DNA of 64,000 nucleotides from contig JAGVVL010000002.1 of assembly GCA_018287875.1 (NCBI GenBank), positions 7,750,001 through 7,814,000 on the forward strand, in the 5' to 3' direction. The notes beneath the pieces were generated by a model. The model was given only the letters and a program-made list of their open reading frames with translations, made no database searches and was not told where the DNA came from. The translations under genes and the position numbers were made by a program. The first letter of the stretch is position 1. The number at the start of each line of letters is the position of its first letter. The stretch is from Nigrospora sphaerica. Its lineage: Eukaryota; Ascomycota; Sordariomycetes; Amphisphaeriales; Apiosporaceae. Shown here piece by piece: positions 15,684 through 59,326 of this stretch.

Positions 15684-18600
15684 TCAAAAGTCTGAAGTCG
15701 TCTGACCGCGGGCTTCAAAATTCTCGTTTGACTTCCGGGCCAGCTCATCCAGTTCCTGTTCGGTGAAATTGAAATCCATGTCGGTCATGAAAACACCCTC
15801 CTGGTCCGGCGTCTCGGAAATCATGCAGTCCGTAGCCGCAACGCAGGGCTGCTGAGACTGGCGCGGAACGGCACCGCTAGTACTGGTCGTAATGGGCGAG
15901 GTGAGCGAGTCCTGCTGGACCACGCTCTTAAACTGCGCAAGGAGGATTGCGTCGTCGGCCGACGTTGACTGCATGCCCATGATGTCGCGAGCGCGTGTCC
16001 GTAGCTGCTCGTCCGTCGGGAACACGCCTGTCTTCTGCACCTCGCGCTTGACGTAGGCGCTCAGCCCGTTCTCGAGCTCGCGCGAGCAGAATACCTTGGC
16101 TGGCGCCTCGTAGCGCTTTGTGAACGTTTGAAGAAAGCGATTGGCCGTCGCCGCATCCGGTTCGAACTCCTTGGATCCCTCGTGGCAGAGAATTTTCGGG
16201 TTGCTGTCCAGCGGCGCGAAGGCGGCATTGGGGTTGGGCGCCACGTACGGAGGTGCGAACCCAGTTCCGCCCGCCGATAGCGACCACGGAAGCTTGTCCA
16301 CGCCCAAGCCTGTGTTGCTGTCAGGAGGCAGGATTCCGACATCTCTCTTGAAGCGTTGCAGCCATTCGACGTTGTCGGCCGCCGTGTGGTTCCAAGGGTC
16401 GTCACTGGGCCGCATTAGCTTGAGGCCGCCGTCGTCACTGGCTGGCTACCAGGGTAAGACTTACTCATCGTAGACTATCCATCGTGCTTGATGCTGGAGT
16501 TCCTCGTCTGTCGGAATGTGCTGGCTGGGGTTGTTAGCCGACATTGTTGCGACTGCGAAGCGCTTGAGGTCCTTGGCCAAGCGGCGATAGCAGTTGGTAT
16601 CGTTCAGAAAATTTGGGCCGGGCATGAAGTCTTGGTGTAGTCGACCGACTGGGCTCGCCGTCAATGTGTGGGCCGTGGATATAGGCGTCACCGGGCTTGC
16701 TGTTGAGCCTCCCGCTGGTGCCTGTAGAGAGCCCGTAGTGCAGCCAGCGGGCGAGTTGCTTGACGTTGACTGGGCCATATGTGGTACACGGGCAGGGTGT
16801 CTGTCCCGAAAGCTGCTAAGCCATTCTGAATCATCGGCAGCCGTCTGATTCCAGTCATCGTCGTTTTCGTAGATGATGATGCGAGCTTGTCTTTGCAGGT
16901 TGGCATTCGTCGGTTCAATCCCAATCGCGCGCTGGAGCTGCAGATACTCGCTCAGTTCGTTGTCTAGTCTGCTGTAGTTGTGGATTGTCGAATCGATGGT
17001 CTTGGGATCTTTGGAGCGCTGGAGAACGTTGACCATGTCCTCGGTTCGCGGCAGGTGGGCTCGCTTCCGAAACTCGGCCAGCCAATGATTGTCGCTGTAG
17101 ATGAGACGAAGTAGCCAGTTCGCAATGCCTTCGCATGGGAGTCCCGACTTTTCTTCCATCCGCCCGATGATCTTGCAGGCTTCTTCCTGAAGCTCGTTGT
17201 CGATAGCGGTTAAGCCCAGTAGCTGGCGTGCCTTTACGAAGTCATGTAGATCTCTCTCAAGATCACACGACTCGAAGATGCTATTCTTGGAGTTGATCCT
17301 TAGATGAGACATGCGACCTTCCAAATGGCTCGTGGGCCGGAACATGGCCGCGGTGGCTATGGGAATGTTGGACACAATCAAGTCACGCAGCCATGACTGC
17401 GGCTGTTGATCCAGGTTGTTGGCGCGGAGCTCGGAGCCGTAGATGATACGACATGCTTCTTCTTGTAGCTCTTCATCAGTAGGCTGGCGCTGGTGGTCAA
17501 CCGCAAAATTGGCCGCCCAGTATCGCAGTTCGTGCTTGATCAGTGCGTATGCATTGTTCGGCGTTGCCGACGGACTCTCGCACGCCGTGTAGGGCAAGGG
17601 GGAGTTCCTCTCGTCGTGAATCAGGTCTGTGGTGATGCCATTAGAACAGGCCGTGGGTAAATAGGCCGGACAGGTCTCTTACAGGGAGGGATTGAGTTTT
17701 CGACCATTTCGAGCACGGGCGCATCGAAACCCCAGTCTCCTTTCCACTGGGCCATAGTCTGTCCTGACTTGAAGTGCTCGGCGAGGTGGTCAACCCGCAT
17801 CGACCAGCTGTCCAGTACGTCGCCACAGAAACCGCATCGAGAGCGAATGGCCGGCGTTGCCACACGCCATCTGTCCATGGCAGCTGGTAGAAACTTGACG
17901 TCATGCACGAGTTTGAGGTGCTGTCGGAGGTGGTCTTTTCGGTAGAATGTCCGCTCCTCGAGCGATCGTTCGGTGCAGCTCGAGAAGTTGTGCGACTCGA
18001 TGTGGGCGTCGTCTGGGTTGGCCTCGCCACAGAATACACAACTCAGAAGCCCGGTTGCGGGGTTCACAACCTTGGGGCCATCCGGTGAGCATACCCAGCG
18101 CTCGAGGGAGAGGTGGAGAGATTTTTCATGCCTCTGCCAGTCATGTTTCGTCCTATAGGTCTCGGTACAGAAAGTGCACTGGAACGTTTTGAGCGGCTCC
18201 TGCAGTTTCTCCTCGGGCCGGGGGGCAATAGCTCGCCGGCGGCGCCGCCGACCCCGGGTCCGAGCAAAAGACGGAAGGGACCCAAAAGAGCCCCGTGATT
18301 GGCGCGAGAAGGACGAGGCAAAGGAGCCGCCGCTTGACTGTGAGCGCGACAAACTGCTGGCGGACGACTGGTTGCAGAGAGACCGGCCTGATCCATCATC
18401 CGAGTACCCGGACCAGTACGGACTGTTGATGCCAGAAGCCGAGGAAGGGTTGGAGCTCGAAGCAGTGACGGCGCGGGCGATGGCCGTCACGGAGGCCGGC
18501 TCGTTTTCAGGGGGCGAGTTGGCCCAACGCTGCAGTGGATTCATGTCGCCGAATATTCCCGGTGTTCCTCTTCGCTGGGGAATCTCCATGGCACTGGCAT

Positions 18601-32183: not shown

Positions 32184-32264
32184 GGGGATGTGGTCTAGTG
32201 GTATGACGTTTCCTTAGCATGCTCAGCATGGAAAAGGTTCTGGGTTCGATTCCCAGCTTCTCCA
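32184..32264 (+). tRNA. tRNA-Ala(AGC) with 9-nt intron
   Basis: The acceptor stem GGGGATG pairs with CTTCTCC (one T-T mismatch) and includes a G3-U70 wobble, the alanine identity element. The D-arm is GTC/GAC. The anticodon stem TTTCC/GGAAA is perfect and the loop reads TT-AGC-A, then a 9-nt insert (32220-32228, TGCTCAGCA), then T. The T-arm CTGGG-TTCGATT-CCCAG is perfect and the discriminator is A. The insert sits one base 3' of the anticodon, the standard nuclear tRNA intron position. CCA is not encoded. Confidence 0.93.
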
Positions 32265-33980: not shown

Positions 33981-35825
33981 ATGTCTCGTCCCACGCACAC
34001 GCCCGGGCGGCCGACGTCGTCGTGGTTTTTGGACACGCCTTCGCCGTCCGAGGGCTGGATCAACCTCGGCGGCATCCCGACTCCGGTTCCGACGCCGCCG
34101 CAGGAGCGCGGCATCGGCGAGCTCGAGCCGCCGCCACCGCCGCCGCCGCCGCCCCCCAACATCTCGGACCACCCCGTCTTCCGCTCCGCGCCCGCGTCGG
34201 ATGGGCCCCCGCGACCGCCGCCGCGGCCCCTGACGAGCCGCAGGAGCCTCATCGACGCCTCCGTCTTCATGCCCGACCCCCTGGACCACCCCATATTCCG
34301 CTCCTCGTCGTCGCCGACGGCCCCGAGCTCCAACCCGCAGCGCCAGGGCCCTGTGACCCACGGAAGCAAGCGGTATGGCACCGTCTACGCCGACGGCTCC
34401 TCGCGCGGCGGGCCGGGAGTGATGCCGCCCAAGCTGCCGCCTCTGGACCTCTCGGGGCAGACTCGGCCGGAGAGCGCTGAAAGCGACCACGCTGATCCGC
34501 CTTCGAGGGTCGCCAGCCGCGCCGAGATGACGGCCCCCGGGCCCGGCCAGAGCCAGTCGTCAACACAAGCGGCCCATCGGCCACACCGCAGCCTCGAATC
34601 GGGGGAGGCCGACCTCGGCCGGTACTCACCGGGCGGCGCGTCGCACGCCGCCGACCGGCTAAGCGCCAACCTCTTCATCGTCTCGTACCTCGTATTCTTC
34701 TCCATCATGGGGACGCTGGCCCGGCTGGGGCTCCAGGGGCTCACGACGTACCCCCGCAGCCCGGTGAGCTTCGACAGCATCTGGCCCAACTTCACGGGCA
34801 CGCTGATCCTCGGCCTGCTGCACGAAGGGGCCGAGCTGCTGCGTCATCCGCGGGCGGCGCGCAGCATCGCGCGGCCCACGTCGACCGACTACTCGCGGCG
34901 CTACACGACGCGCCACCCCAGCACGGTGCGGTCGACGATCCGGTCCAGCGAGTTCTCGATCCTCAAGGACTACAGCAAGGAGGCGGCGGCGGCGCCGCCG
35001 GCGGACCCGGTGCCGCTTCACATCGGGCTGACGACGGGCTTCTGCGGGTCGCTGACGACCTTCTCGTCCTTCATGCGCGACGGCTTCGTGGCCATGGCGG
35101 GCGGCGCGACGGTGACGCCGACGACGCCGTCGCCGGGCCAGGACTTCATGTCACTGGCGGCCGTGGTGCTCGTGACGGTGGGCGTCTGCGCGGCGGGCCT
35201 GCAGGCGGGCGCGCACGCGGCCGTGCTGCTCCGGCGGCTGGACCGGCGGGTGCCGCGGCGCGTCGTGCGGGCACTCGACTACGCCGTAGTGGTGCTCGCG
35301 GCCGGCAGCTGGGCCGGCGCCGTGGTGCTCGCGGCGCTGCCGCCGGACCGGCCGGGCGGCCCCGTCGGCCACAACGCGGCCTGGGCACAGGCGACGTGGC
35401 GCGGGCAGGTCCTCTTCGCCCTCGTCTTCGCGCCCCTCGGCTGCCTGCTGCGCTTCCTGCTGAGCGTCCAGCTCAACGGCCGCTTCGTCGGCTTCCCGCT
35501 CGGCACCTTCTGCGCCAACATGATCGGCACCCTCGTCCTCGCCGTCACCTGGGACCTGCAGCGCCTGCCCGCCACCGCCTCCTGGATCGGCCGCGACGCC
35601 CTCTCGTGCCAGGTCCTCCAGGGCGTTGCCGACGGCTTCTGCGGCTGCCTCACCACCGTCAGCAGCTGGATCCTCGAGCTCACTGCCCTCCGCCGCGCCC
35701 ACGCCTGGCGCTACGGCTGGGTGAGCCTGTTGACCGCCGTTGCCATCGTCGTTATTGTCATGGGCTCCATCACCTGGGCCAACGGCACCGCCGAGCCTGT
35801 GTGCACAAGCATCGACGGGCGCTAG
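33981..35825 (+). CDS. FEX1: Fluoride exporter FEX (two fused CrcB domains)
   Basis: This is a single exon for 614 aa. Residues 1-225 are a Pro-rich, probably disordered cytoplasmic N-terminus with a run of ten prolines and a duplicated segment (SDHPVFRSAPAS / LDHPIFRSSSSP). Two CrcB-like four-helix halves follow. The first has FTGTLILGLLHEG and GLTTGFCGSLTTFSSF near 352. The second has FCANMIGTLVLAV and GVADGFCGCLTTVSSW near 551. They are joined by an extra hydrophobic segment, as in eukaryotic FEX proteins. FEX is a plasma-membrane channel that lets fluoride leave the cell. The N-terminus is much longer than in yeast Fex1 (about 375 aa in total). The coding sequence is very GC-rich. The start is the first ATG of the frame. 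Confidence 0.93.
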   Translation: MSRPTHTPGRPTSSWFLDTPSPSEGWINLGGIPTPVPTPPQERGIGELEPPPPPPPPPPNISDHPVFRSAPASDGPPRPPPRPLTSRRSLIDASVFMPDPLDHPIFRSSSSPTAPSSNPQRQGPVTHGSKRYGTVYADGSSRGGPGVMPPKLPPLDLSGQTRPESAESDHADPPSRVASRAEMTAPGPGQSQSSTQAAHRPHRSLESGEADLGRYSPGGASHAADRLSANLFIVSYLVFFSIMGTLARLGLQGLTTYPRSPVSFDSIWPNFTGTLILGLLHEGAELLRHPRAARSIARPTSTDYSRRYTTRHPSTVRSTIRSSEFSILKDYSKEAAAAPPADPVPLHIGLTTGFCGSLTTFSSFMRDGFVAMAGGATVTPTTPSPGQDFMSLAAVVLVTVGVCAAGLQAGAHAAVLLRRLDRRVPRRVVRALDYAVVVLAAGSWAGAVVLAALPPDRPGGPVGHNAAWAQATWRGQVLFALVFAPLGCLLRFLLSVQLNGRFVGFPLGTFCANMIGTLVLAVTWDLQRLPATASWIGRDALSCQVLQGVADGFCGCLTTVSSWILELTALRRAHAWRYGWVSLLTAVAIVVIVMGSITWANGTAEPVCTSIDGR

Positions 35826-43812: not shown

Positions 43813-46800
43813 TTAATTTCGAAACGCTCCCTTGGCGAGCGAGAATAGGCTCGCAAAGCCCGAGTCGGAGCCTCCCTGCGACCGCCGGTCCTCCTTGTCC
43901 TCGCGGCGCTCCTCGTCGGCCCGCGCCCGGCGGCGGTGGCGGCGGCGGCGCTCTCGCTCCTCGTCGTCGGCCTCGCCCGACCGCACCGATGCCGACTCGT
44001 AGCCGTTGCGCGCGTCGAGGTGCCGCGACGACACGCCCGAGGGGGCGTGTTCGCGCGGTCGGTCGTGAGCATGGGCGTGGTGGCGTCCGGGCGGGCGGCG
44101 GGACCGGTCCTCGCGGCTGCTGCGCGAGGGGCCTCGTTCCCGCGTCGCGGGGCTGATCCAGTCCACCGGGGCGGTGCCTTCATCGGACACAACGAGGGTC
44201 GACATGGTCGTCGTCGTCGTTGATGTCGGCGTCGCCACCTCCTCGACCTGGATACTGGGAGGCGGCCGGCCGACTTCCCCGGCGGGCCCAGCGCGCGCTG
44301 GCAGGGCCCCGTTGACAGCACTCGCGCGGTCTCCGCCCGTCGCCGGTTGTGGCACGGCGGCTGGCTGTGGCACGGCGGCTGGCTGTGGTGGGGGTGCGTC
44401 GTGGGTGGCCCGAAAGGTGGCCAGGGGGGTATAGAAGGTGGCGGCATATTGGCGGCGCCGCTGTTGCCAGACCAGTGAACAGGACACGCGTATGAGCTCT
44501 TCGATCTCGGCCTGAGTAAGAGGAGGTTCAGCGGGGGGGTTCTGGCGAGCGCATGGCTGGGGGAGGAAACCCCTAAGCCGACGGCCGGGGCAGGTCCCGT
44601 AAGGGGGCGTCTTCCCGGTGAGTGGGGACAACTTACGTGCGTGATGCTGGGCTCCAAGACCAGCCGCCCGTCGCGCCTCGCCCGCGGAACGATGCCCATC
44701 TGGTCCAGCGCCTCGGGCCGCACCCACTCCTCTCCGACGGCTACGTACTCGCGCCGGGCGGCATCGCCATCGTCGCCGGCGGCGGCCGGGGCCGGGAAGA
44801 ACTGGGGCTTGTACGCGGCGTGGTAAAACAGCACGAAGACGGGTTTGGAGTCCAAGAACCACGTCTCGCCGAGGTCTGGTGTAGGGGGCGCGCGGCCATG
44901 TCAGTCAAACCCACTTCACTCCCCCCAATTTGATCCCCCAGGTGTGGGCCAACTTACCCGAGCCACGAACGTAGACCATAGCCAACCCGTGTCCATTGGA
45001 AAGGGTGTCGAGTATATCGGTGCCGCGCACCGCCGACCGGTCGTTGACTAAGGACCCGAGGACCGCCGTCCCGTCTAGACCGTGGCACGCGGTAAAGTCG
45101 TCGGCGTTCCAGATCATGCCTGCGTCGCCGCCGCCGCCCTGGCGCGCGAGGCTGAGGCCGTGGTCCAGGGCGTCGAGCCGCGGGGCCGCCACGTCCTTGC
45201 CCTCGTTCAGCTCATAGGCGGGACGGAGCACCAGAACGGTCGGCTTGTCAAACTTCCGGCTCGCCGGGTTCGGCGGAGGGCGCGGATACCGGTAGGAAAT
45301 CCTTGGGCCCGGGTAAGGGGCAAATTTCCCACCAGCATAGCTTTGGAAGCCGCCAGGGAGGGTCTGATTGAGGTAGCTTCTTCGGTTTGAGGAATAAAAG
45401 CGGTCGAAATCGTTTCTGTAGGCACCGCTGGAAGGCGAAAACGGATCAGGAAACTCGTGCGGGTGCGAGCGTGACTCGGGCTGGGGGAAAGACCTCGGGT
45501 ATTTGGGAGGACCTCTCCGCTCCGGGGGAGGGGAAGGGGTTCTCCTCCAACGATAGCGATCACTGGAAGGCCTCGATCTCTCCTGTATGCGTGGCGCCTC
45601 GGTGTCGCCAGCCTGCGATTCCTGACTCCAACTCCGGCGCCGCGACATACGGATGTGGGGTCTTTCACCGTCGGAATCGTCTTCAGAACTGTACGAATCG
45701 TAATAGTGCGCTTGCTGGGAAAAAAGCGCCGTTAGTGCTTTACTAGAGGAGGGTAAAAAAGGCACAGGGACTCACTGCGTCAGGAACACTTGCTTCTAGA
45801 GCAATGGCTAGGACCTTGCTCCGTATCATCTCCTCGTCAGGAACGACCGTGTCGTTTGGGGTCGCTTCCTCCCCGGCTTTGATCTCTTCCATGTTAAGAG
45901 ACGTCCATTGCAGTAGCAGTTGGTCTACGACAAGTCCGGCCTCTGACGAGTCCTGGTTCGTCCGTCCCGACTGCTCTTGCGTTGCCCGTTCCCTCCTGGC
46001 CCTGCGCTCGGCCACACGATGCTGGCGGTGGATCGCATATTCGGCTTCGTCGGCGGTTGACATTAAATCTTCGAATTCGGTCTCATTTAAGCCACCGCTG
46101 TCTTTCCGTTCCTCTTCCCTGATCACGTTCGGGGTGCCATTGGTCTTGCCCGAACCCATATAAGAACCTCCCGCAAAGACAAGATCGTAGAGAAGAGCTG
46201 CGGCGTCAAGATGCGCGTTGCGACTGAAGGGCGTGATGGTATGCTTTCTTTCTTCCTCCCGTTTCGGGGCAGGCGATGGGATGGGAAGTGCGTCTCCCTT
46301 CCCTTCCTCTGGGTACGTGAAGTCTTCTACGTGCGGCGGTGGTGGTATTACGTATTGGTTTCGAGTACCGGTAGTCGTCGAAGACCTCTTATGCAGGCCG
46401 GAGGCAACGGGTGGCGACTGTTCATCGCGTCAGTTCGTCCGCCCGTTACCAGCTTGGGATATTTAGTAACCTGAACTTGGGAATCTGGCGGTACAGGCGC
46501 CGAGGGTGGAGCTGAGGCCCCGGTGTCTCTGTACGCTCGCTCATCATGACTATCGAGGGAGTCCCTGCAGTCTTGTACTAGGCATTCTGCCTGCTTCCGG
46601 AGTCGGCGCTGCGAAGACTTCATCTTGCTGCACGGGCCCGTTGGTCAGCAAGTTTACAAAAGGACTTTCCTCTGGGATTTTCCGTACTGCGTGGCATCCT
46701 TCTTCACAATACCCAGAGTCAAGATGACCACCTGCATGCTAACGGTGCTTTTGTGTGTATGTATATCGGCCAACAGCGACTTCGCCTTGCTCCACTTCAG

Positions 46801-47100
46801 TCGCTTCATTATGCTCTTATCCTCAATCATGTCGAGTATTTCGTCCTGGGTCTCCTTGATGCTCGAGACGACCGACATTATTCCGCGGAAGTAATGGCGT
46901 GAGGCGATGGCATGCCCGTCCGAGATGATTTCATGCAAGTGCTCGAGCGTACAGGTAAGACTGGCCATCTCTTTGGCGACCTCGCGCATTTGTCGGGGCG
47001 CATGGCGGACCGTCTGCACCAGCGTGTACAGGGAGGACACGAGCGTAGCGCCGGCCGTCGAGATGCCGGCAATACCAGAGATGACGGACAGCGGATCCAT
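43813..47100 (-). CDS. Protein with STAND-type fungal N-terminal domain and disordered Arg/Ser-rich tail
   Basis: Six exons (46688-47100, 46471-46627, 45776-46417, 44958-45714, 44637-44875, 43813-44511) keep frame and give 968 aa. Residues 1-130 (MDPLSVISGIAGISTAGATL; then helices with TVRHAPRQMREVAKEM) form the helical fungal N-terminal domain found at the front of many STAND/NLR-like proteins. No NACHT, NB-ARC or repeat domain follows. Instead there is an Arg/Ser/Pro-rich middle (SRRRSWSQES; RWRRTPSPPPERR), a compact region with PTVLVLRPAYELN and GETWFLDSKPVFVLFYH, a helix with EIEELIRVSCSLVWQQRRR, and a basic tail. The second donor (46471) is weak: CAG|GTTACT or the alternative CAA|GTTCAG. 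The function is unknown. The N-terminal domain suggests a possible signalling or self/non-self role, which is inference. Confidence 0.75.
44348..44388. repeat. 18-bp coding tandem repeat
   Basis: TGTGGCACGGCGGCTGGC is present 2.3 times on the + strand. On the minus strand it encodes a repeated Pro-Gln-Pro-Ala-Ala-Val unit in the last exon of the STAND-N-domain gene. Confidence 0.85.
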
Positions 47101-48173
47101 GATAGCAGCAATAATGCGTCGAGGTCAGCTTCGTGTCGATACAGGCGCATCACGAGCCCTAGCAGATGAACACCCGCTAGGACCTGTGGTTCTTATAATT
47201 CCCAAGCGGGCTATCCATACCTTGCGGCTGCGGCTGCGGCTGCGGCTGCGTGATCTCTCGAGTCTGCCTCGGCCAGCCAATTTGACCAGGGCATCGTGCG
47301 AGAAGCCGGGGTGTCTTTGTCAGCCCGCAGCAATTAAGAGGCATCCCAATGCACTCCGCCACCACCAAGACCTATCAGCCCAACGATGACCAAGCAGAAG
47401 CGAGACGGGCAAGTTAGCCAACGGCCATTCGGGGGTGTTCCTCGATTGCAGTGCATCTTGTATTCCCAAGAGGCACCCTGACTTCGAGGTCCTCCAAAGC
47501 CTGGCCTCGTCTGTTCGTGCGGGGCTTGGCAGCGCGGTGCGCATCCCTTAAGTATTTGCCGCAAGGCAACAAAACAAGGCAAACGCGAGAGTCAGACCGC
47601 GGCTCCAGTATGGCTCTACTTCAGAAAGCGGAATCAGCTTGGCTTTTCGACGGCAGATTTCTTATCAAGACTCACCAGAGTCACCTCAAAGCAGTGGTCT
47701 TCTCAATTTGGGGGGGGGAGAAAACTGAATGGATTTATACACCAAAGCTGGTTGTCCCCTAGCAAGAAAAAGGGTATCCTGTCCAAACAGGGGTAGCTAG
47801 AATATGAAGATGTACGTCGACAGGCGGCACGCAGAAGGAATATGAGGGTCTAGAGAAAGCGGATGCGAGATGGATGGAAACGAGCGAGGTGGTTGCGTGG
47901 GGGCCAAAAACCTGGCACTTATTGATTAGCTCCGCATATGGGATAATACTAGGGTAACTAACCATCTACGTAACTGTAATCGAGAAGGCGGTGTTGCACC
48001 TCCCGGGTTAGGCCTCCTTCCCGATCACGCAAGCCAAGACATCAGATGCACTTAGAAGGCCACAAATCTATGACTGAGTATATATGAGCTTTTATGCCCC
48101 AAAGAAAAGTCTAGATGGCGGGCATACAGTTTGTTCCGAGATCTACGACCCAGCACCAATAACGCAATCTAGA
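47101..48173. other. Intergenic region with (TGCGGC)n
   Basis: This 1.07 kb runs between the STAND-N-domain gene start and the MFS gene stop. At 47223-47250 TGCGGC is repeated 4.7 times. A G9 run lies near 47709. No gene was recognised, and the right part is A+T-richer. Confidence 0.45.
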
Positions 48174-50028
48174 CTAGCCCATAGTCATGGGCGCCTCACC
48201 GAGTGCGTGGCTTGGAAGCTTCTTAATGGGCACCAGAAGGGAGAACGCGAAGGCCGTGCCGGAGAAGGCCACCGCCACGGCGAATGCAGCCTTTATGCCC
48301 GTCATGTAGGCCTGGAGGACTCCGGGGAGGACGTCGGGAGGAAACACATTATGTAGCTCTGACGCGCCCGTCATGAGCACAAGACCCGGATTAACCGTAG
48401 GCGCCGTCTTGGGTAGCTCGGCAAGCAGCCGGTTCACAAAGGCCGCCTGGCCTGATGATGTGCTCACAGCGCCTCCGATTGTTTGAAAGACTGGCCGGAA
48501 TGCGCAGTTAGTGCCGAGGAACGGCAGGATGAGAGGCAAAGAAGAGAAAAGATGGAAACATACACAGGAGATTGGCCGTAACGGCCGAGATGTCCTCGGC
48601 ACCCACGTTGGCCTGCGCCACGGTCAAGCCGTGCATGATGGAGAAAGCCATGGCGGCGCCCGTGAAAAACTGGTAGCCAACCCATTTTGCCGTCGGGGAG
48701 CCAATGTCGAGCGTGTAAATGAGCCCAATGGCGACGGTCGACAGCATGGAGCCCACCAGCATAACGGGCATGGCGCGCCCCGTCTTCATGACGACGCCGC
48801 CGCCGACGAGAGCAAACACGGCGGCGGCGAGAACGAGAGGCAGGTTGTTGACACCGGATTGGATGGGGCTCGCCTCGAGAATGCTCTGGAAGTAGATAGG
48901 CAGGTAGTAGAGAAGAACAATGTAGCTGCCCATGAAGAAGAACTGGTAGGGCGCCGTGGACCAGAGCGAACGCTGCTTATAGAGGCGCGGCAGCATCATG
49001 GCGTACTCGCCCAGCCAGATCTCCCAGGCCGCGAGGGCGAGGGCAAGGAGGCCGGCGCCGACGAGCAGGCCGATGACTTCGCTACTGCGCCACGGGTGCG
49101 TGGTGCCGCCGTACTGGAGGCCCAGGATGAAACAGGTGATGGCGCCCATGGCCAGGGCGATGCCGACGGGGTCCATGTGCAGCAGCTTCTGGTGCCAGGC
49201 CATCTTGGGCGGGTTGGGGTTGACGGCGGCGGGCAGGCTGAAGAAGAAGAAGACGGCGACGGCGGCGACGCCCCCGATGGGCAGGTTGATGTAGAAACAC
49301 CAGCGCCAGGTGACGCGGTCGGTGAAGGCGCCGCCGATCAGGGGGCCCAGGACGGCCGAGAGGGCGTACGTCATGCCGATGACGCCCATCATCATGGGGC
49401 GCTTGGCCGGCGGGATGGTGAGCGAGACGATGCTGGTGCCGCCGACGGAGAGGCCGGCGCCGCCGAGGCCAGAGATGGCGCGGCCGACGACAAGCGTCTT
49501 GGAGTTGGGGGCCACGCCGCAGAGGAGGCTGCCGACCTCGAAGACGAACATGGAGACCAGGAAGCTCCACTTGATGTCGAAGTACTTGTACAGCTTGCCG
49601 GCCGACGTGTGGGCGGCGCCGAAGGTCATGAAGTAGGCAGCTGCGTACCAGGACACATCGGACAGGCCGTGAAACTCGTCGGTGATCTTAGGGATGGCGG
49701 TGCCGACGATGGTCTGGAACGCGCGGCGACGCCGCTGTTAGTGGCGGGCCGTTGCGGGGGCCGGGCCGTTGTGGGGCCGCTGGGACGGCCCACGGGGGTG
49801 GAGACGTACCTGGTCCAGAGCGATCAGGAAAACCGCGACGATGGAGGCGCTAGCGAGCAGCACCAGCTTGAGACCCTGCGGATATTGGTTTTCGGCCATG
49901 GCCTGAGTCGACGATTCACTGCTGTGGGCTCTGTCTGCCACGGGGGCCTCCATGGTCGACACCTGGGACGACTCGGCCCCGCCCACAGCCGCCGTTGCAG
50001 CCCCTTTCTTCTCTGTGAAGTCCGTCAT
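48174..50028 (-). CDS. MFS drug/metabolite efflux transporter (DHA, about 14 TM)
   Basis: Three exons (49810-50028, 48564-49713, 48174-48490) give 561 aa. A charged N-terminus leads to TM1 with the antiporter signature ALDQTIVGTAIPKI. GRAISGLGGAG follows in TM4, and LGPLIGGAFTDRVTWRWCFY gives the TM5 proton-antiporter motif C and the WRWCF segment of 14-TM DHA transporters. The third junction restores LLFFQTIGGAVST, typical of the family. Such proton antiporters export toxins, drugs or secondary metabolites across the plasma membrane. It lies at the edge of a group with an oxidoreductase remnant, a PKS-NRPS remnant and an SDR, so a former role in exporting that cluster's product is plausible. 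The protein itself looks intact. Confidence 0.92.
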
Positions 50029-50728
50029 GATGGACGGGCTGTCGATGCACGCGTGGGAGCCTCGGCCGCCAGCGGCACACGCAAGGAAGCAAGCGAGAGG
50101 CTAGATAGAGGGAAGGACGAGTGGGCTGTTGCAAGGCAAACCTATACAAGGATGTATGTACAGATCAAGCTACTCATGTACAGTATGTAGGTTTGCGCAA
50201 CGATCTGCACCGCCAGGACAATTCCACGGCGACACTTGCACCTCCTTTTAGTAAAGACGCCCTGGAGAGCCGGCGAAACAGGAGTCCTTGATCGGGGCAA
50301 CTGTTGCGCCGAACGGAGGCAAGCCGTCTTGGCGGTGGCTTGCACCTAGCGATAGCATCGCTTACGGCCGTAACTCGCCCCGGGGCCGAAGTTTCGGCCC
50401 CCACTTAAAATCACCGATCAGTTCGAGACCTTTCACTATGTACCAGCACTTGGCTATGCAACTCACGACCGGCCTTCGGCCACAATGAAAATCACAGACG
50501 CCCGGTAGCATCTCTGCGTTGCGTACTACGCCGACTGGCCCGGCCATTTCGAGCCAAGATGCCATCGAAGGCAGACTGCCACGAGCGGGACAAGATGTGT
50601 TGACGACCCTGACAGTGCATCGGCGCTGGCCAGTCTTTTCTTAAGCTGCTACCAGCTCATCCCTTGCTTCCCTCGAGAGTTTACGCTCTTCCTTGATAGC
50701 AAGAGCGGAACTGACGAACCGGCATGGC
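50029..50728. other. Divergent promoter region of the MFS gene and the damaged oxidoreductase
   Basis: This 0.7 kb holds the MFS promoter on the left. On the right, where the first β-strand and Gly-rich nucleotide loop of the oxidoreductase should be encoded, all three frames fail to give such a motif. Confidence 0.45.
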
Positions 50729-51943
50729 AGCGCCTGGACCCTGACGAATCCCGCCAAGTTGCACCCCGAGGTGGTTGTGCAGGCCGTCGCGGCAAGGAAC
50801 CGCAAGCGGGCCGAAGAATTCGCCAAGCAGCACGGCATCCCCGATGTCAGAGATTCGTACCAGGATATGTGACGTGACAATCGGCCTGGCTCGGCCGGCC
50901 CGGTGGCTACAGCCATGGCACTGACACAAGGCACAGAAATCCTCGATGACCCCAAGATTGACTACGTCCTGGCCCCTCTGCCCAACTCTCTACACTTCGA
51001 GGGGGCCGTCAAGGCCGTCCAGGCTGGCAAACATGTTCTGCTTGAGAAGCCGTCTGTGTCCAGCGCGACAGAGGCCACGACACTGTTTAACCTGCCCGAA
51101 TTCCACGGTCCCAGTCCCCCCGTCATCCTGGAGGCCTGCCACTTCCGGTTCCACCCCGTCTGGGCGCTGTTCCGGTCCCTTGTCACGCCCGCCGACGTCG
51201 TCCACGTCGACACCTTCTGCATGATTCCGTGGTGGATGGTGACCAAGGACCATATCCACTTCAACTACAACCTGGCCGGCGGCACTATGATGGGGATGGG
51301 CACCTACAACTTTGCCGCGCTGCGCCTTCTCTTTGACGCCGAGCCCGAGGAGTGTCTCAGCTGGGATACGGAGGCCTTCACCGAGGGCGTGCACCACGAC
51401 TGCGACTACAACTTCAAGGCCCGGTTCCGCTTCCCCAACGGCGGCATCGACGAGGCCTACAGCACGCTCCAGGGGCCGACCATCTGGCAGCCGTCCCGGG
51501 CCACCGTTGTGCACCGCCAGGTCGCCGTGCCCAACGAGACGCTCCCGGCGGCGCATGAGAAGCCTGTCACGCGCGAGGTGACGGTTCAGGGCTGGATCCA
51601 TGCCATCTTCTGGCATCGCGTCGATGTCAAGGAGACGTTTGTCATCCGCGACCGCGATGGCGGAAAAGTCCTCAAGACGTGGACCGAGGGCCGGTCCCAC
51701 AAGGCTTACACCTTCAAGGAGGCGGGCGGCGGGCTGGCCGAGATGCCCGGCGAGAAAGACACCTGGATTTCGTTTAGCTACCAGCTCGAGGAGTTCGTGA
51801 ACCGAGTCAAGGGCCGCGATACGCGGTACTGGGTGGAGAGGAACGATTTTGTCGATCAGATGAAGATGATTGACATGGCCTACGCGAAGAGCGGCCTGGG
51901 AATCCGACCGACCAGTTCCTTTGAGGCCAAAGGCAAGGTTTAA
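50729..51943 (+). pseudogene. Gfo/Idh/MocA-family oxidoreductase, 5'-damaged
   Basis: From 50729 one frame reads SAWTLTNPAKLHPEVVVQAV, then RNRKRAEEFAKQHGIPDVRD and ends SYQDM at a TGA (50870s). The continuation, ILDDPKIDYVLAPLPNSLHF, lies in another frame from about 50940 and runs intact to a stop at 51943. It includes GKHVLLEKPSVSS (the conserved EKP catalytic motif) and an α/β domain with GGTMMGMGTYNFAAL. A GTGACG...GGCACAG intron between the two parts would leave the frames one base apart. The glycine-rich dinucleotide loop before NPAK is not found upstream. I therefore read it as a 5'-truncated, frameshifted NAD(P)-dependent oxidoreductase. A shorter protein from the ATG at 50915 (342 aa) could still be made but would lack part of the Rossmann fold. 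Confidence 0.65.
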
Positions 51944-52310
51944 ATACGGAGGCTATCCTCCAGTACTTGTGGGAGTGGCCTGGGGATCGGGCTTTTGATA
52001 CTTTTGTGCAGACACGGAATGAGATACACGTCCCAAGGCCCGAGCACCGTACTGCCGTTCGACCCTGCCGTTTGCTCTGGGCCAATGTACTACTGATCCG
52101 GTTTGCCCAAGTTCGAAAAGGTTCCATAAATGCCACCAATAGAGGACAAAGTCCGCAAGGCTGGTGCAAGCTCGAAGTCATGGGACCTTAGAACCGTTTC
52201 TCACGGGCCCAGCATGGAAACTGTTACAGCCTCACTGCCATGTGTTCCGTTGGTGTGCAAAACGACACCCAGCTTCAATACCTGCAGTGAGAACGGCGAA
52301 TACGTAGAAA
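51944..52310. other. Gap between oxidoreductase and PKS-NRPS relics
   Basis: About 370 bp. I find no coding continuity with either neighbour and no repeat or transposon end. Confidence 0.4.
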
Positions 52311-53210
52311 ATGGGATGGGAAAGCTACAGCTCCCGACATATCTCGATGTATGCAGATTTCCAAGCGATAGGCAACGTCGAGGAAGCAGATGAGCTCGGC
52401 ATCGACTCGCTCGTGGCGGTGGAGGTCCGCTCATGGTTCCTCAAGGAGCTCAAGGTGGAAATTCCGGTCTTGAAGATCGTAGGCAGCGCTACGGTTATGG
52501 AGTTGTGCGAGAGAGCATTCGAGAAGCTCGCACCGGAGATGCAGCCTGGACCCATTGGCACTCCAGTCAAGCCTGAACCGACGGCAACGTCGTCGTCGCC
52601 TTCTCGGCTGCCAACGACGCCATCAAAAGAGGACGAAGTCGCGGAAAGTGACTCCGCCTACACGCCCGCGTCCGTAACCAGCGACGGGTCTGACTTCCCA
52701 CTTGAGACTCCAGGGACGACCATGGCTTACTCGGGCCCGGCCACCCCCAACCCGAAGTCCAGCAGCCTCGCCTCCGGCAACGATGGCCCCGCGTCAGGTG
52801 GCCTCTTTTCCCCGGCACCCAAGCACCAGCCCGACACCAAGGCGGCGGCGGCCCCTTGCCGATTCCTCAAGAGCGAGCGGATATCCCTCTCCCAGTCGCA
52901 TTTCTGGTACCTGCGGCACATGCTGGACGACCAGACAGCGCCCAACGTCACCTCTTCCTACTGTTTGACGGGAGACTTGCGTATTGGCGACCTCGAGAAG
53001 GCCATCCGCGTCGTCACCACGCGGCACGAGGCGCTACGGACGTGCTTCGTGGGCGACGAAGCCGACCCCGGCGAGGCCTACCAGAAGGTCATGCCCAGCT
53101 CTCCCGTGCGTCTGGAGCGCAAGAATGTGACATCGGTCGAGGCCAATAGTTATGTACGTAAAGGCTGCTCAGGATCCACCACGTGCCAGCAACCCGCGCT
53201 ACTTCCTTAG
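52311..53210 (+). pseudogene. PKS-NRPS relic: carrier-domain end plus start of condensation domain
   Basis: Within a 299-codon frame, homology begins abruptly at EADELGIDSLVAVEVRSWFL. This is the phosphopantetheine site (Ser in GIDSL) and second half of an acyl carrier domain of the kind seen at the end of highly reducing fungal PKSs. A Ser/Thr/Pro-rich linker of about 100 residues follows. Then comes the beginning of an NRPS condensation domain: RISLSQSHFWYLRHMLDDQ, SSYCLTGDLRIGDLEKAIRV and TTRHEALRTCFVGDE. It stops after RLERKNVTSVEANSY near 53155, before the catalytic HHxxxDG. The order ACP-linker-C is that of fungal PKS-NRPS hybrids of about 4000 aa, so only about 7% of such an enzyme remains. 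The 3' end abuts the convergent SDR gene. Confidence 0.8.
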
Positions 53211-54293
53211 ATCCTGCAGAATACCCGATACGTTCGCGAAATTGAATTCCTCCAGAGTTTCCTCCCACAACCGGTCCCTGAGCATCTTACCATCTGTCGT
53301 GTAGCACAGGCTTGGATAGCTGACGGTGTGCCACGTGTTAGAATATATCAACAGGCCCACCCTGCCAACGGTTGAGAGACCACGGGGGAAAAACGGGACG
53401 ACTCACGGCTTGATGGTCCATTCGCTCAGGAAAGAGCCATGGCTGGCGGACCCTTGGGAAATGCCATCGATGTAGGTCGTGGCGGCGACCTCAGGCTTCC
53501 GCGCGCCCATGATGAACTGGATCACGGCCATGGCCTTGCGAAGGATGAACGGTTGCGTGCTGAAGAAGCCGGTCCCGCCCGTCATGCCGGGGTTCACCAT
53601 GTTGATAAATACCCCCGTATCCACGGCCTCGGCCAGCTTCCAGACGAAGAGTATCAGGAGGAGCTTCGATATGCCGTACCATCGGGGCTGGGCGAATTCC
53701 TTGGGGTTGTCAAAGCGCGACAGCACGGGCCCAGACGTCTCGATCGGCGTCGAGTATACCATGTCGGACCCGACGAGGGAGAGCGTGGCTGTCCTGCCAC
53801 TCTGCTTCTGTGCTTCCAACACCGGCAGGAGCAGAATGGCCAGGAGGGCAGTGGAGAGGTAGTTAACCTGGATGGTGCCCTCGTGCCCCGACGGGGCCGT
53901 GGCAAAAGACGCCTTGAGAAGGCCTGCGTTCAATATGACGATGTCGAGGCGTGGCAGTTGGGCGCACCGGCTGGCAAACTGCTGAACCGAGTCGTACGAC
54001 TCCATGTCTACCACCGAGACGCTGACGGTGGAAGCGGGAAACTCTTTCCGGAGCTTGGCAGCCGCCTCGTCGCCGCGGGTTTGTGACCGCACGGCCACGA
54101 CGAGGTGGGAGAGTCCCACGGAGAGGAGGTGGCGCGCCGCATGGAAGCCGATGCCCGTGTTGCTGCCGGTGACGACGGCGTATTGGCCCGCGAGCCGCAG
54201 GTCCGGCAAGGGTTTGGGACGAGCAAGCTGGCGGCGGATGAGGCCGAGAAAGGATGCCTCGCCTGAGGCTTGCGTCTCGAGGGCTAACGACAT
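53199..54293 (-). CDS. Short-chain dehydrogenase/reductase (SDR)
   Basis: Two exons (53407-54293, 53199-53319; GTGAGT donor, GTCAG acceptor) give 335 aa. The Rossmann motif TGSNTGIG (about 42-49), DIVILNAGLL (the NAG motif) and the active-site WYGISK (Tyr-x3-Lys), with an upstream Ser in LVGSDM, are present. A hydrophobic helix (LLLILFVWKLAEAV) follows the catalytic Lys. The C-terminal exon adds YPSLCYTTDGKMLRDRLWEE and a final EFNFANVSGILQDLRK. It is an NAD(P)-dependent ketone/alcohol oxidoreductase of the fungal retinol-dehydrogenase-like SDR type; the substrate is unknown. Because it ends next to a PKS-NRPS remnant, a former tailoring role is a reasonable inference. No lesion is seen. Confidence 0.88.
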
Positions 54294-54932
54294 GACGATG
54301 GCTAAGCTGTGAAGATCGAGCCACGGGTGAACCGACCGCCTCAGCTAGTACCCGGTAGCGGAGGTACTAGTCGAGATGATATCCATCCACGACAGCCATG
54401 CTCGCATGTTCACAACGGCTAAAGAATTGGGTCGTCACGCTTTGCCAGCAAATATAAGTCGGCGACTATGGCTGCAAAGCACCGAATGCATATCTTGGTG
54501 TCGTACCGTCGGTCAGATTTATTGCACCGACTTCCGACTACGAAGGAGCCAGGCTGAAAGTACCAAGGTACATAGGTATATAAGCGAGTACCTGAGAGGA
54601 ACCATTACCCGGGCCGCCCCGTTGGTGCTATTTTATTAGATCCGAAACCAGGATCCCACGCTTGCCAAATTCGGCCTCTAGAACGCCGCCTTTCTCGATT
54701 TATGTAAGTAAAATCCGTCCCGGCCTCACGCGTCCTTCGCCCATCAAGCAACACTGAACGCGCCCCTTCTTAAAGCAAAGCCCAAAGGACCGCCCCTGTG
54801 CGACAATTCCGACTCGGAAGCAGGCTTCGGGCCCCATGACGGCCTCCCTCCTCCACGTCCAAAAGATTGATCCATTTTCTCGGCCGTTCTCCATCTTCGC
54901 CCGGGGAGGCAAAAAGTAAACTTCGCAAGCTA
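54294..54932. other. SDR promoter side and tRNA flank
   Basis: This 640 bp holds the SDR promoter. A GGTACATAGGTATATAAGCGAGTACC string near 54567-54592 combines a TATATAA-like element with the TAGGTA/TACC motif seen elsewhere, but it lies about 280 bp from the SDR start. No gene was recognised. Confidence 0.4.
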
Positions 54933-55016
54933 TGCCCACTGCTGGAATCGAACCAGCGATCTCATCATCACCGGAGGTGTTACTAGTGATGCGCTTTACC
55001 ACTAAGCCAAGCGGGC
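54933..55016 (-). tRNA. tRNA-Thr(AGT) with 9-nt intron
   Basis: On the minus strand the acceptor stem GCCCGCT pairs with AGTGGGC (one G-T pair). The D-arm is GGCTTAGTGGTAAAGC. The anticodon stem CATCA/TGATG encloses CT-AGT-A, a 9-nt insert (ACACCTCCG) and G. The T-arm GCTGG-TTCGATT-CCAGC is perfect and the discriminator is A. The intron is in the standard position after base 37. The anticodon AGU is read as IGU after editing. Confidence 0.93.
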
Positions 55017-55602
55017 CGTGGTGTTCACAAGTCTCTGTTGAACGCCGATGGAAGAGAGACGGCTTATTGACTGCTCTGTAAAAAGGCGGTGATAGTAGTA
55101 TTGATCAGGGATTGGCCCAGACGAAAAACAAAATATGTGCCGCTGCTAATTGGCTTATGTGGTTGTGTACATACACGAACGTGTCATGCTCGAAGGGGGC
55201 AATTCATAAGCTCTCCTCTCTCGAGAAGCCCGGCCGCTATTTCTGTTGTGGCGGGCGACCAGTCATGTAAATCGGAGGAACGGGTACCTCATTATACTCA
55301 CGAATACTAGGTTCTGATTCACCGTGTCGAGATTGTCTTACTTTATATCGTGGCAGACCCAGCGAGAGCCGCTTCCATCCGCAAGAGATGTGTGTCGGTA
55401 GGATCCCTGCGGAAAACTATTCAAACAACAGAACAGGAGTCGTTCCATAGTCCCTCGGCTGGCATGTTGTCGGACATTGTCAACACGGAGAACTTATTCC
55501 CCGCTGCGCGCCTGTGTTGTCACGGCAGGGTGTTGTTTAAATACAGAGCCGGTGATGACGCCGAAGGGGTTCTCCTAGCAACCCTGAGGCCTTCTCCTCT
55601 AA
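55017..55602. other. Intergenic, A+T-richer
   Basis: About 590 bp between tRNA-Thr and the unrecognised decayed region. There is a short motif-free ORF at 55350-55613. No transposon end is visible. Confidence 0.4.
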
Positions 55603-56539
55603 ATGTCTGCTGAGGACCCGTCATTGGCCAGACTTGGCGAAGCAGACAGCTTAACTTGTCTACTCGCAACCCCTTGTCATCTGATTGTGGCCGCATACTA
55701 CTATAATCCCCATCTATTCCAGGGGCAATTTGACAGTGGCGCTCCCACGCTGGGATTCTACGCCGCCTGGTGACTGATGAAGATCCAGAGAACCTGGCCA
55801 AGAATGGGACGCCGAAACCTGTCGAGCTTGACATCGCTCCCAACACCTATACGGCTAAGGTGCAGGCCGAATACGGTCGCAATGTGTACAACGTATGTCT
55901 ACACCGTGGTCGATGTCCCTGCGACGACTGAAATCTCGGAAGAGGTCCAACCCGTTCTGCGGCTTCCGGAGCGAGTCGCCCACGATCTCGCCACCCACTG
56001 GGCAAGCATGGTTTATGTGCCGCATAGGCAGGCCAGGACCGCGGCGCCGGTATACCCGCTGCTGCTCTTCCTCATGGGATAAAATTGCCGCCGCGAGGTG
56101 GAGCAAGAGAACTACGTGTGGACGCTGAGCTTTCTAGGCCGGCAGGTCGGCCTTCCCCCGAGACTCTTCGTCGAGTTACTGATAACGCTCGAGTCCCAGA
56201 CCATCAAGGAAGTGAGCGACGCCTCCCTCACATATGCGCACAGAAACACCTATTGGCTTAGAGAGCATTTCAAGACTGTGCCCAGGCGCCTCAAACTTTT
56301 GGTAAGACCCTTGCTTCGGTCGGAATGCTGAAGATGCCCGCCACCTGCGTCGCGGAACGACCAATGCACTCCGTGGCGAGTGGCATGCAATCCTTAACCC
56401 GGATCCAAGCGCGGACGACTCGGATTCCTCCGATAAAGAACATAATGATCAATTAGCTATCTCCGGTTGCAAAGGTGAGTTTCATGGATACTTGAACAAG
56501 TACCTCGTGACGGGTGGTTATGGCCCCAGGAATGGGTAA
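55603..56539 (+). pseudogene. Unrecognised, apparently decayed protein-coding region
   Basis: Several consecutive open segments on the + strand read like protein but not in one frame. ATG 55603 opens MSAEDPSLARLGEADSL, which runs to a TGA near 55769. A second frame carries DEDPENLAKNGTPKPVELDI to RNVYN at 55892. A 52-nt intron (55893-55944; GTATGT...GAAGAG) would join it to VQPVLRLPERVAHDLATHW. That frame meets TAA near 56080 and then continues openly with QENYVWTLSFLGRQVGL and WLREHFKTVPRRLKLL. A third frame (56324-56539) carries EDARHLRRGTTNALRGEW, an acidic DDSDSSDKEHND stretch and a final stop. The breaks suggest a pseudogene, although a further intron (from GTATACC near 56050) could remove the TAA. 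The family is unknown. Confidence 0.4.
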
Positions 56540-56893
56540 GAGACAAGGCATCAAAAAGGTAATCCAGATTCTGTAATACGCATGTTGGCACAGCTGAGCC
56601 CTGAAGTCAGCAACGCGATACAATGGTCTCGACCGACCCTAGGCGAAATACGCAATCATGGATGCGCCACTCCGATTCTCTATCTCTGTAACCATTCCCG
56701 CGAAACAGACCGCAATGGACGGACTGGGGATGCAGGGAGCCGTCCGCCCCCCAATAGAGAGGCTCAGACACACAAGAGACACATGATAGAAAGGCGATCT
56801 CTCCTACTTAGCGCCATGACCGCGTGCGACTCCGGACCATCGATTGATCCACTCGAAAACCAGTCGGTGCCATTCCAGCGACTACATCTCCTG
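56540..56893. other. Gap before the S9 peptidase 3' end
   Basis: About 350 bp. I see nothing beyond the probable 3' UTR of the minus-strand peptidase gene. Confidence 0.4.
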
Positions 56894-59326
56894 TCAGCCA
56901 CTTATCTCGGGGAAAGATTCCTTGCACGCGGCAAGGACCTCACTTACATTCTCTTCCTTCAGAACCCAGTGGTTCTCGTCTGGGAAGTTGACGAAGCGGG
57001 CCGGCGTGCCTAAAGCCTTGAGTGCGTGGAAGGCGGCGATCCCGTCCGAGATGGGACACCTATAGTCCTCATCGCTATGGATGACCAGCATGGGCGTGGT
57101 CCCTATATCACATCATATTAGTCATCACATACAAGCCGTGACATTTCCCACCCCTGCCAGCCCGAGAGGGCGCCAACTCACATTGCTTGAGGAGTTCCGG
57201 GCGGGCGGGATTGTAGCGTTGCAGCCCCGCCTCGTTCTTCCAGAGGAGAGGCGGCCCGCCGAATGTCGCCTCCTCGTCGATAGCATCCGAAATGAGGACC
57301 GACGTCGGAATGTCGAACACACCATCGTGACAAACCATGGCCTTGAACTGAGTTGAGCCACGTAAGTAATGGGAACAGCGGAGGGGAATGGAGAGAAACA
57401 AAAAGAAACAAGAAGGCTCACGCGACGTCCAAGATCGTGTCCTTGCATCCAGTTGACCATGTAGCCGCCGTAACTCGCTCCAACGGCCACGGCGTTCTCC
57501 ATGTCGATACCGGGAATGTTGTCTTCAACATACTCCACGCACTTCACGAGATCGTCGTAGGGCCGGCCACCCCAACCGTCATCGACAGCTATCATCTTCG
57601 TTAGCAGTGGATAGTACGCCCGGGTCCTAGGTCCTTGGCTCACCTGCGGCAAAAGCTTCGCCAAACCCTTTGCTGCCCGAGATGTTCGGTGCCACAACGA
57701 TGTAGCCTTGCTCAGCCCACAATATACTGTTCCACTATTCTGTGTCAGCATAATTGCGGCACTTGAAGATTTAGAATGCCTTGACGAGAATCTTACCCGG
57801 TTGCTCCAACCGTCGTTCCATGAACCATAGGGACCGCCGTGGATGGCGAGACACAACGGGTAGCTCTTGGTTGCGTGGAAATCCCGTGGCTTGACCACCC
57901 AGGCCTGGATAGAGTGGCCCTCTGCTCCCTCAAAGTAAATAGACGTGACTTGCTTGCGAGAAAGACAGAGGTCCTCTAGGCCAGAGGTTTGAGGAATGAT
58001 GCGCGCCTCCGATTCTGTTCCCTTTTCTGCGTCGATCACCTGGTAGATACAAGGCTCGGCCATGGTGGAAGACGTCACCAACAACTTGCCAGATTGACCT
58101 GGGAGCTGGCGCAATGGGTAATACGCCGACACGCTGCCACTTTGCAGTAGTGTCTCGGGTGCCTCGTCCGTCTGCAAGTCCAGCCGGTAGAGACCGACAA
58201 TGCCGTGGTCAGTGGCGTCAACGTACAGAGATCGCCCGTCCGGAGAGAATTCGAAGCCATCCGGTTTCAGGTGCCAAGACTGCCTTCTTCCGGCGGCCAG
58301 TACATCGGTGGCGACCAGGGCCTTTTCGAGCTGAACGATGTAGATGGATACGTCACGCGAGTGCCCCTGGGGCGCTCGTTGGAACGCGATCAGTGACCCG
58401 TCGGGGCTGAATCGCGGACGGAAGTAGTAGCCCGGCAGCGGTTGGCCATGGACCGCCACAGGCTCGGGTCGGACTCGAGCGGCCTCGGAGAAGGAATGAA
58501 TCGGCAGGTAGAAGAGACCGCTTGTCTGAGCGAATTTGTAGGGGACACGGGGCTTATGCCCCGTGAAGACGATTCCCTTGTCGCAGACGTCAAACGCGTC
58601 AGTGGGGTCGTCAACGTCGTACATACCGTTGGGAGCCTCCAGGCCGGTGTCGTGGCAAGCGTTTCTCAAAGGCTTGTTGAGTTTCCACCCTTCTGCCGTT
58701 TTGGAAAGAGTAGTGTAGAAGATTGCATGCTTCTCTTGCTTGACGTATGAGTCCCACTACGAACGCTCGTCAGCAGTGAGCGCCCGCGAGGGAGGGGATA
58801 TGGGAATCAGGGTAGAACGAGGCCAACTCACAAACCGCACATCATAGTCATCGTAGACACGGGCCGTATGCAGTTTCAGACTGGTTTCGGGGTTGTACAG
58901 CCCTCCGTCCTCGGCTGCCAACCCAACGACCAAGAAAGCGACTGAGCCGTCTGGAAGGACCTTGAGTTTGAAGTCCGAGACGGGGGCATCGATCCCATCC
59001 GCTTTGTAGGCCGGCTTGGAAGGGTTGCTGGCATCAGCCATCATGACCGAGGTCGCGCCCTTGTCGTCTTTCTTGAGGAAGACAACGGTGTTGGTGCCAT
59101 CGCCCAGCCACACCGCCTGGTGGGATTTCTCGTCTTCGAACAGCTGGTTCGATTCCCCGGTCTCGAGTTTCATGACCCGGATCTCTTTCCGGGAAGTTTT
59201 CTGGCCAACCTCATGGGTTGATTGCGTAAACAGGGCCAGCGTACCGTCGTGGTTTGGCACGGCCGGGCCTTTACGAGGCGCCGAGATGAGGCGCTCGGGG
59301 GTGAACTTGGGAGCAGGAGACGCCAT
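56894..59326 (-). CDS. S9 serine peptidase (dipeptidyl-peptidase V / acylaminoacyl-peptidase-like)
   Basis: Six exons (58832-59326, 57797-58756, 57644-57734, 57422-57588, 57182-57347, 56894-57102) give 695 aa. The N-terminal about 400 residues form a β-propeller with repeated blades (FSPDGSLIAFQR; FSPDGRSLYVDA). The α/β-hydrolase domain starts at LAIHGGPYGSWNDGWSNR, has PNISGSKGFGEAF and the nucleophile motif GASYGGYM (Ser about 554), then HSDEDYRCP (Asp) and PDENHWV (His). This is the S9C (DPP V-like) arrangement. Unlike secreted fungal DPP V, the start MASPAPKFTPERLISAP has no signal peptide, so a cytosolic peptidase is more likely, unless an upstream exon was missed. Each small exon was fixed by frame and family fit. 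Confidence 0.9.

Follow-up and report, generated by a model that had tools for sequence, protein, structure and literature searches.

Partial loss of genes for hybrids of polyketide synthase and nonribosomal peptide synthetase (PKS-NRPS) has been published before. The hymS gene of the hymenosetin cluster could be identified only in part in Hymenoscyphus albidus, and the authors presume that a stretch of 10 kb was deleted (PMC8254937). For the clusters of Aspergillus fumigatus, gene loss, truncation, and pseudogenization were described in the pertinent part of a study of 66 strains (PMC5711037). Here, a locus of Nigrospora sphaerica at positions 48174 to 54293 of the window (the whole 64,000-nucleotide stretch analyzed, C12:7750001-7814000) is considered, where a fragment of a PKS-NRPS gene lies between genes for a Gfo/Idh/MocA oxidoreductase and a short-chain dehydrogenase/reductase (SDR), with a gene for a major facilitator superfamily (MFS) transporter close by. 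The genome comprises 51.6 Mb in 33 contigs, of which C12 accounts for 9.07 Mb. The locus probably represents the in-place relic of a full PKS-NRPS gene that suffered deletions on both sides, accompanied by separate damage to the Gfo/Idh/MocA gene.

As in H. albidus, a partial remnant of a core gene is present; in contrast, the sister species H. fraxineus has a whole candidate cluster whose product is named (PMC8254937), and for the Nigrospora locus neither could be shown. Loss, truncation, and pseudogenization within clusters are shared with A. fumigatus, where, however, the part of the study that describes them draws on population data, as opposed to the one genome here (PMC5711037). The closest match with a solved structure is the PKS-NRPS psoA (PDB 9x29, 9x2c), which shows the same order of acyl carrier protein (ACP), linker, and condensation domain over residues 2450-2677 (E 1.1e-20), followed by LovB (5e-12). 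Yet psoA is a full enzyme of 4007 residues, whereas ∼258 residues are left in the Nigrospora fragment.

A PKS-NRPS fragment between two breaks

The fragment and its borders are as follows.

52371..53144, plus strand: PKS-NRPS relic with the C-terminal two thirds of the ACP, the linker, and the N-terminal fifth of the condensation domain
52398..52412, plus strand: GIDSL motif with the carrier-domain serine, read from the sequence and from the alignment with relatives
51944..52370, no strand: left-break stretch, single copy and without coding signature (coding scores are negative both for 51944-52313 and for 52314-52391)
53145..53202, no strand: right break, beginning where the homology to condensation domains ceases and reaching up to the stop codon of the SDR gene, which is encoded on the other strand

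The plus-strand frame 52308-53207 is free of stops over 300 codons (∼298 from the first ATG at 52314). When codon usage was scored after training on other PKS-NRPS genes of N. sphaerica, 52371-53144, which contains no stop, stood out as the sole coding segment between the Gfo/Idh/MocA and SDR genes; the GC content at third codon positions (GC3) is 0.78 over 52392-53141. The translation matched the Pfam families PP-binding (7.3e-6; profile positions 26-66 of 67) and Condensation (4.1e-9; positions 8-93 of 456), each exceeding the curated cut-off. The ACP match, in which GIDSL is present and profile positions 1-25 are missing, is followed by the linker and the condensation match, the order found in a PKS-NRPS hybrid. 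By this domain content, the fragment derives from a PKS-NRPS megasynthase of which both ends are gone, as an earlier note on this DNA had proposed from nearly the same coordinates (52380-53155). With psoA as the yardstick, ∼2450 residues upstream (∼7 kb) and ∼1330 residues downstream (∼4 kb) are missing, ∼11 kb together. Fold prediction with AlphaFold gave a mean pLDDT of 45 and a pTM of 0.23, a weak result because only 13 aligned rows were available.

On the right, the break is sharply defined: 15 relatives align as far as the condensation part, and the tblastn matches of 13 of them end at 53132-53159. The end of the fragment is ∼55 bp from the stop codon of the SDR gene, which lies on the other strand. 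The condensation active site HHxxxDG (HHIIMDG in relatives such as P0001) was not seen in the six frames of 53120-53420. On the left, only P0005 extends beyond 52347, weakly, to 52278. Because the carrier domain is without its first third and the condensation domain without HHxxxDG, the relic should not work, and the original product would therefore no longer be made from this locus.

Other remnants of the megasynthase were sought in the window extended by 10 kb at both ends (84 kb; E 0.01) with open reading frames (ORFs) of at least 250 residues from four PKS-NRPS loci of the same genome. According to Pfam, 12 of the query pieces contained ketosynthase (KS; two loci), acyltransferase (AT), dehydratase (DH), methyltransferase, ketoreductase (KR), condensation, adenylation, carrier, and reductase domains, and the ORFs from the four loci included AMP-binding, PP-binding, and NAD_binding_4. 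Because they jointly cover the domains from KS to reductase, this panel should be able to reveal other megasynthase remnants. Besides the fragment, no KS, AT, DH, methyltransferase, or KR remnant was found upstream in the 84 kb, nor was anything else representing an adenylation domain, a second carrier, or a reductase/cyclase. Every megasynthase match fell on the fragment, two of them being weak and antisense to the ACP, and the panel had one further match, to the MFS gene. Thus, neither this search nor Pfam found an intact core enzyme of a secondary-metabolite cluster in the 84 kb, but the fragment only. When relatives of the fragment were used without a low-complexity filter, weak matches appeared elsewhere in the 84 kb (the best with the P0009 linker, 34188-34376, 2.3e-5), which were taken as Ser/Pro/Thr-rich low complexity.

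In the whole genome, the best match to the lost condensation part (P0007 residues 118-452) had 41% identity and lay at other PKS-NRPS genes, so this part was not found elsewhere in the assembly at the expected similarity. For the KR side (P0005 residues 2-264), the best genome match was likewise 41%, at C12:4113644. No second copy of the fragment, its junctions, or the tested flank stretches occurs in the genome, and only short imperfect repeats occur around the breaks. Indices of repeat-induced point mutation are unremarkable in 52-54 kb, except for a 61-bp stretch too short to judge.

Relatives of the fragment

The protein search with the fragment, which admitted only proteins of 165-525 residues, yielded 21 proteins among 1679 candidates, of which eight contain both PP-binding and Condensation in precomputed Pfam annotation. 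Closest in shared sequence were P0006 (69% over 32% of the query; encoded on a 154,604-bp contig) and P0007 (72% over 26%); none of the listed proteins in this size range is more than 72% identical to the fragment. An 18-row tree likewise places both with the fragment (95/90), but each lacks the ACP part; the tree includes two of the four PKS-NRPS loci of the genome (those on C10 and at C1:3.88 Mb were left out). The more distant relative P0009 bears the name ACE1, and P0005 is from Xylariaceae sp. FL0016. Because P0006 and P0007 bear no product name, the metabolite family that the relic had been thought to reveal could not be read from it.

Twelve of the 21 relatives, P0014 not among them, were aligned with the fragment. 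P0001, P0003, and P0004 continue through HHxxxDG, and P0005 reaches back into KR. Since most aligned relatives continue in one of these two directions, homology to a stand-alone family of small proteins, which would have spoken against a megasynthase origin, was made unlikely. This evidence is limited because the admitted size range hides full-length enzymes, and because P0014 and P0005 point the other way. P0014 (264 residues) matches only 52386-53042 with its residues 3-264, a span resembling that of the fragment probably because its 1,195-bp contig ends there.

P0005 (464 residues, 1-Mb contig) is an annotated protein with KR, ACP, and a partial condensation domain and ends eight residues past the fragment match; it may be another relic or a split gene model. 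P0007 (496 residues, 4,044-bp contig) is without ∼40 condensation residues that P0006 holds, just before the HHxxxDG part. Elsewhere in the genome, C3:57773-57892 and C18:1566668-1566787 gave identical scores with two queries, as if one PKS were present in two copies; C3 is 114 kb long.

Neighboring genes

Three genes flank the fragment.

48174..50028, minus strand: MFS transporter gene with introns 49809-49714 and 48563-48491 (Pfam MFS_1 1.2e-35, TRI12 6.6e-11; splice model)
50723..51943, plus strand: Gfo/Idh/MocA oxidoreductase gene, 5′-truncated, probable pseudogene (Pfam PF01408 3e-11)
53200..54293, minus strand: SDR gene of two exons (Pfam adh_short 2.1e-19; 96% identical to P0142; splice model)

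All four gene calls of the earlier note, including that of the fragment, proved real by their Pfam matches, and the two genes that it considered intact have open models. That of the MFS gene starts with the ATG at 50028 and encodes 561 residues in three exons; intron 2 can be placed in four ways that keep the model open (551-561 residues), of which this is one. The SDR model encodes 335 residues (332 with an alternative open acceptor) and stops at 53200-53202; its second exon already lay within the coordinates first assigned to the gene, and the C-terminal exon is matched by P0143. Genes of the transport and tailoring type with open models are therefore present beside the core-gene fragment.

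The Gfo/Idh/MocA gene had rightly been called damaged at its 5′ end, but the damage exceeds a missing start codon. When 49950-50790 was inspected by eye in all three plus-strand frames, the Gly-rich, NAD-binding start of its relatives (FGILGAANSAG) was not seen. In addition, the homology is broken by a 72-nucleotide insert with an in-frame TGA, where the relatives read straight on. Five GT-AG joins (40-200 nucleotides) with the shared acceptor 50956 stay open, but all lose residues common to the relatives. The gene is therefore probably a pseudogene, judging by these lesions. With P0022 it shares 76% identity across 93% of the query, whereas the next-best match in the genome itself reaches 32%. 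The family is broad (1097 proteins at E 0.001) and often named D-xylose 1-dehydrogenase in UniRef. The best named relatives of the Gfo/Idh/MocA and SDR genes are from Coniochaeta pulveracea (74%) and Diaporthe citri (59%), respectively; these names and the introns of the gene models indicate a filamentous ascomycete, probably a sordariomycete.

The proposal that a megasynthase was lost while its accessory genes were kept is thus supported in part: the MFS and SDR genes beside the fragment, which may have been accessory genes, have open models, but the Gfo/Idh/MocA gene, as a probable pseudogene of a broad family, does not qualify as a retained accessory gene. That all four may have belonged to a single cluster is backed by their adjacency and by one SDR paralog (45%) at C7:2557735-2558598, ∼5 kb from a PKS carrier-domain match at C7:2563791-2563943, which indicates that this SDR family can adjoin PKS genes; the claim is weaker than it had been put. 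P0142 is encoded on a 5,444-bp contig. As a lead, its source may hold a longer, possibly intact gene or no fragment, or the contig may stop short.

Probable loss in place and its alternatives

Under the favored explanation, the ancestral locus would have held a full plus-strand PKS-NRPS gene between the Gfo/Idh/MocA gene and the convergent SDR gene, with the MFS gene upstream. At least two deletions would have followed, the left one taking KS to KR and the start of the ACP, the right one all beyond the first fifth of the condensation domain, and the start of the Gfo/Idh/MocA gene would have been hit by separate damage. We infer that relic and neighbors shared one pathway, that the gene was lost by deletion in place, and, because the frame is open and GC3 is kept, that the break is not old.

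Several points weigh against this explanation. In-place loss is read from one genome; two or more events are required to remove both flanks and leave the middle open; and MFS, Gfo/Idh/MocA, and SDR are broad families whose members need not be pathway genes. As to age, the tree branch of the fragment is longer (0.77) than those of P0006 and P0007 (0.28 and 0.11), and in relative-rate comparisons with these two, the fragment had more changes in 10 of 12 cases, with one tie and one case of fewer changes. The χ2 value exceeded 3.84 in two of the 12, which used six outgroups that are not independent and span at most 91 columns (79 with P0007). Because of this excess and the longer branch, the fragment may have drifted for some time, and mild relaxation is possible.

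Alternatively, ectopic repair or translocation could have placed a PKS-NRPS piece between genes that are unrelated and were never clustered. The sharp edges on both sides of the fragment, the absence of both ends, and the wide distribution of the Gfo/Idh/MocA family would agree with this, but no donor was found in the genome: of 26 matches in a protein search with the fragment, 25 lay outside the locus, where short ACP-only ones reached 56% and the best spanning ACP to condensation domain only 35%. Moreover, a DNA search with the fragment and its junctions found the window only, and the nearby repeats are short and imperfect. Insertion is therefore regarded as unlikely. Still less probable is a misassembly that dropped ∼11 kb of an intact gene. 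The missing length would suit one complete gene, but the contig extends over 9.07 Mb, neither the fragment nor its junctions occur more than once, the lone tandem array within 47-57 kb lies at 47223-47250, two separate losses would be required, and the adjoining Gfo/Idh/MocA gene is damaged too. Another alternative, that 52314-53207 functions as a short gene for a carrier-like or decoy protein with a new role, has very little probability. In favor are the length of this open frame, its GC3, the end of P0005, and the similar stretch covered by P0014, but both domains are incomplete, the fold prediction is poor (if weak as evidence), and P0014 is probably cut by its contig ends. Equally slight is the chance that pieces ending within the condensation domain are kept as expressed short genes as a recurring outcome of PKS-NRPS decay (compare P0005).

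The locus is thus a further likely example of a pathway that disappeared through its core gene, with the genes for transporter and reductase remaining open, and it marks where sister strains may hold an intact PKS-NRPS pathway; given the partial losses already published, the understanding of cluster loss is unchanged.

Other features of the window

Pfam matches were obtained for 14 of 20 further ORF pieces selected from the window: MTHFR, CrcB, M28 peptidase, PLD-like (two), PigL_N, S9 peptidase, NUBPL, histone deacetylase, cutinase (two), Tc5 HTH, homeobox, and LRR. No PKS, NRPS, or P450 match occurred among these chosen pieces, which do not represent every gene. The PigL_N ORF (N-terminus of a pigment-cluster protein, 1.8e-8) is located near the MFS gene at 46684-47103 on the minus strand, and the ORF with the weak match to the Tc5 transposase DNA-binding domain (4.9e-5) at 15723-16436, also on the minus strand. 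Rfam identified tRNA genes at 54933-55016 (minus) and 32184-32264 (plus), neither of which ARAGORN reported with bacterial settings. The former lies just downstream of the locus and resembles stretches at 11 further sites of the genome; 54587-54702 is a short repeat dispersed over the genome, with 11 other sites matching it over roughly 46-105 bp. Together, these two account for the 22 other genome matches of the stretch 54320-57100, 11 at the tRNA and 11 at the repeat.

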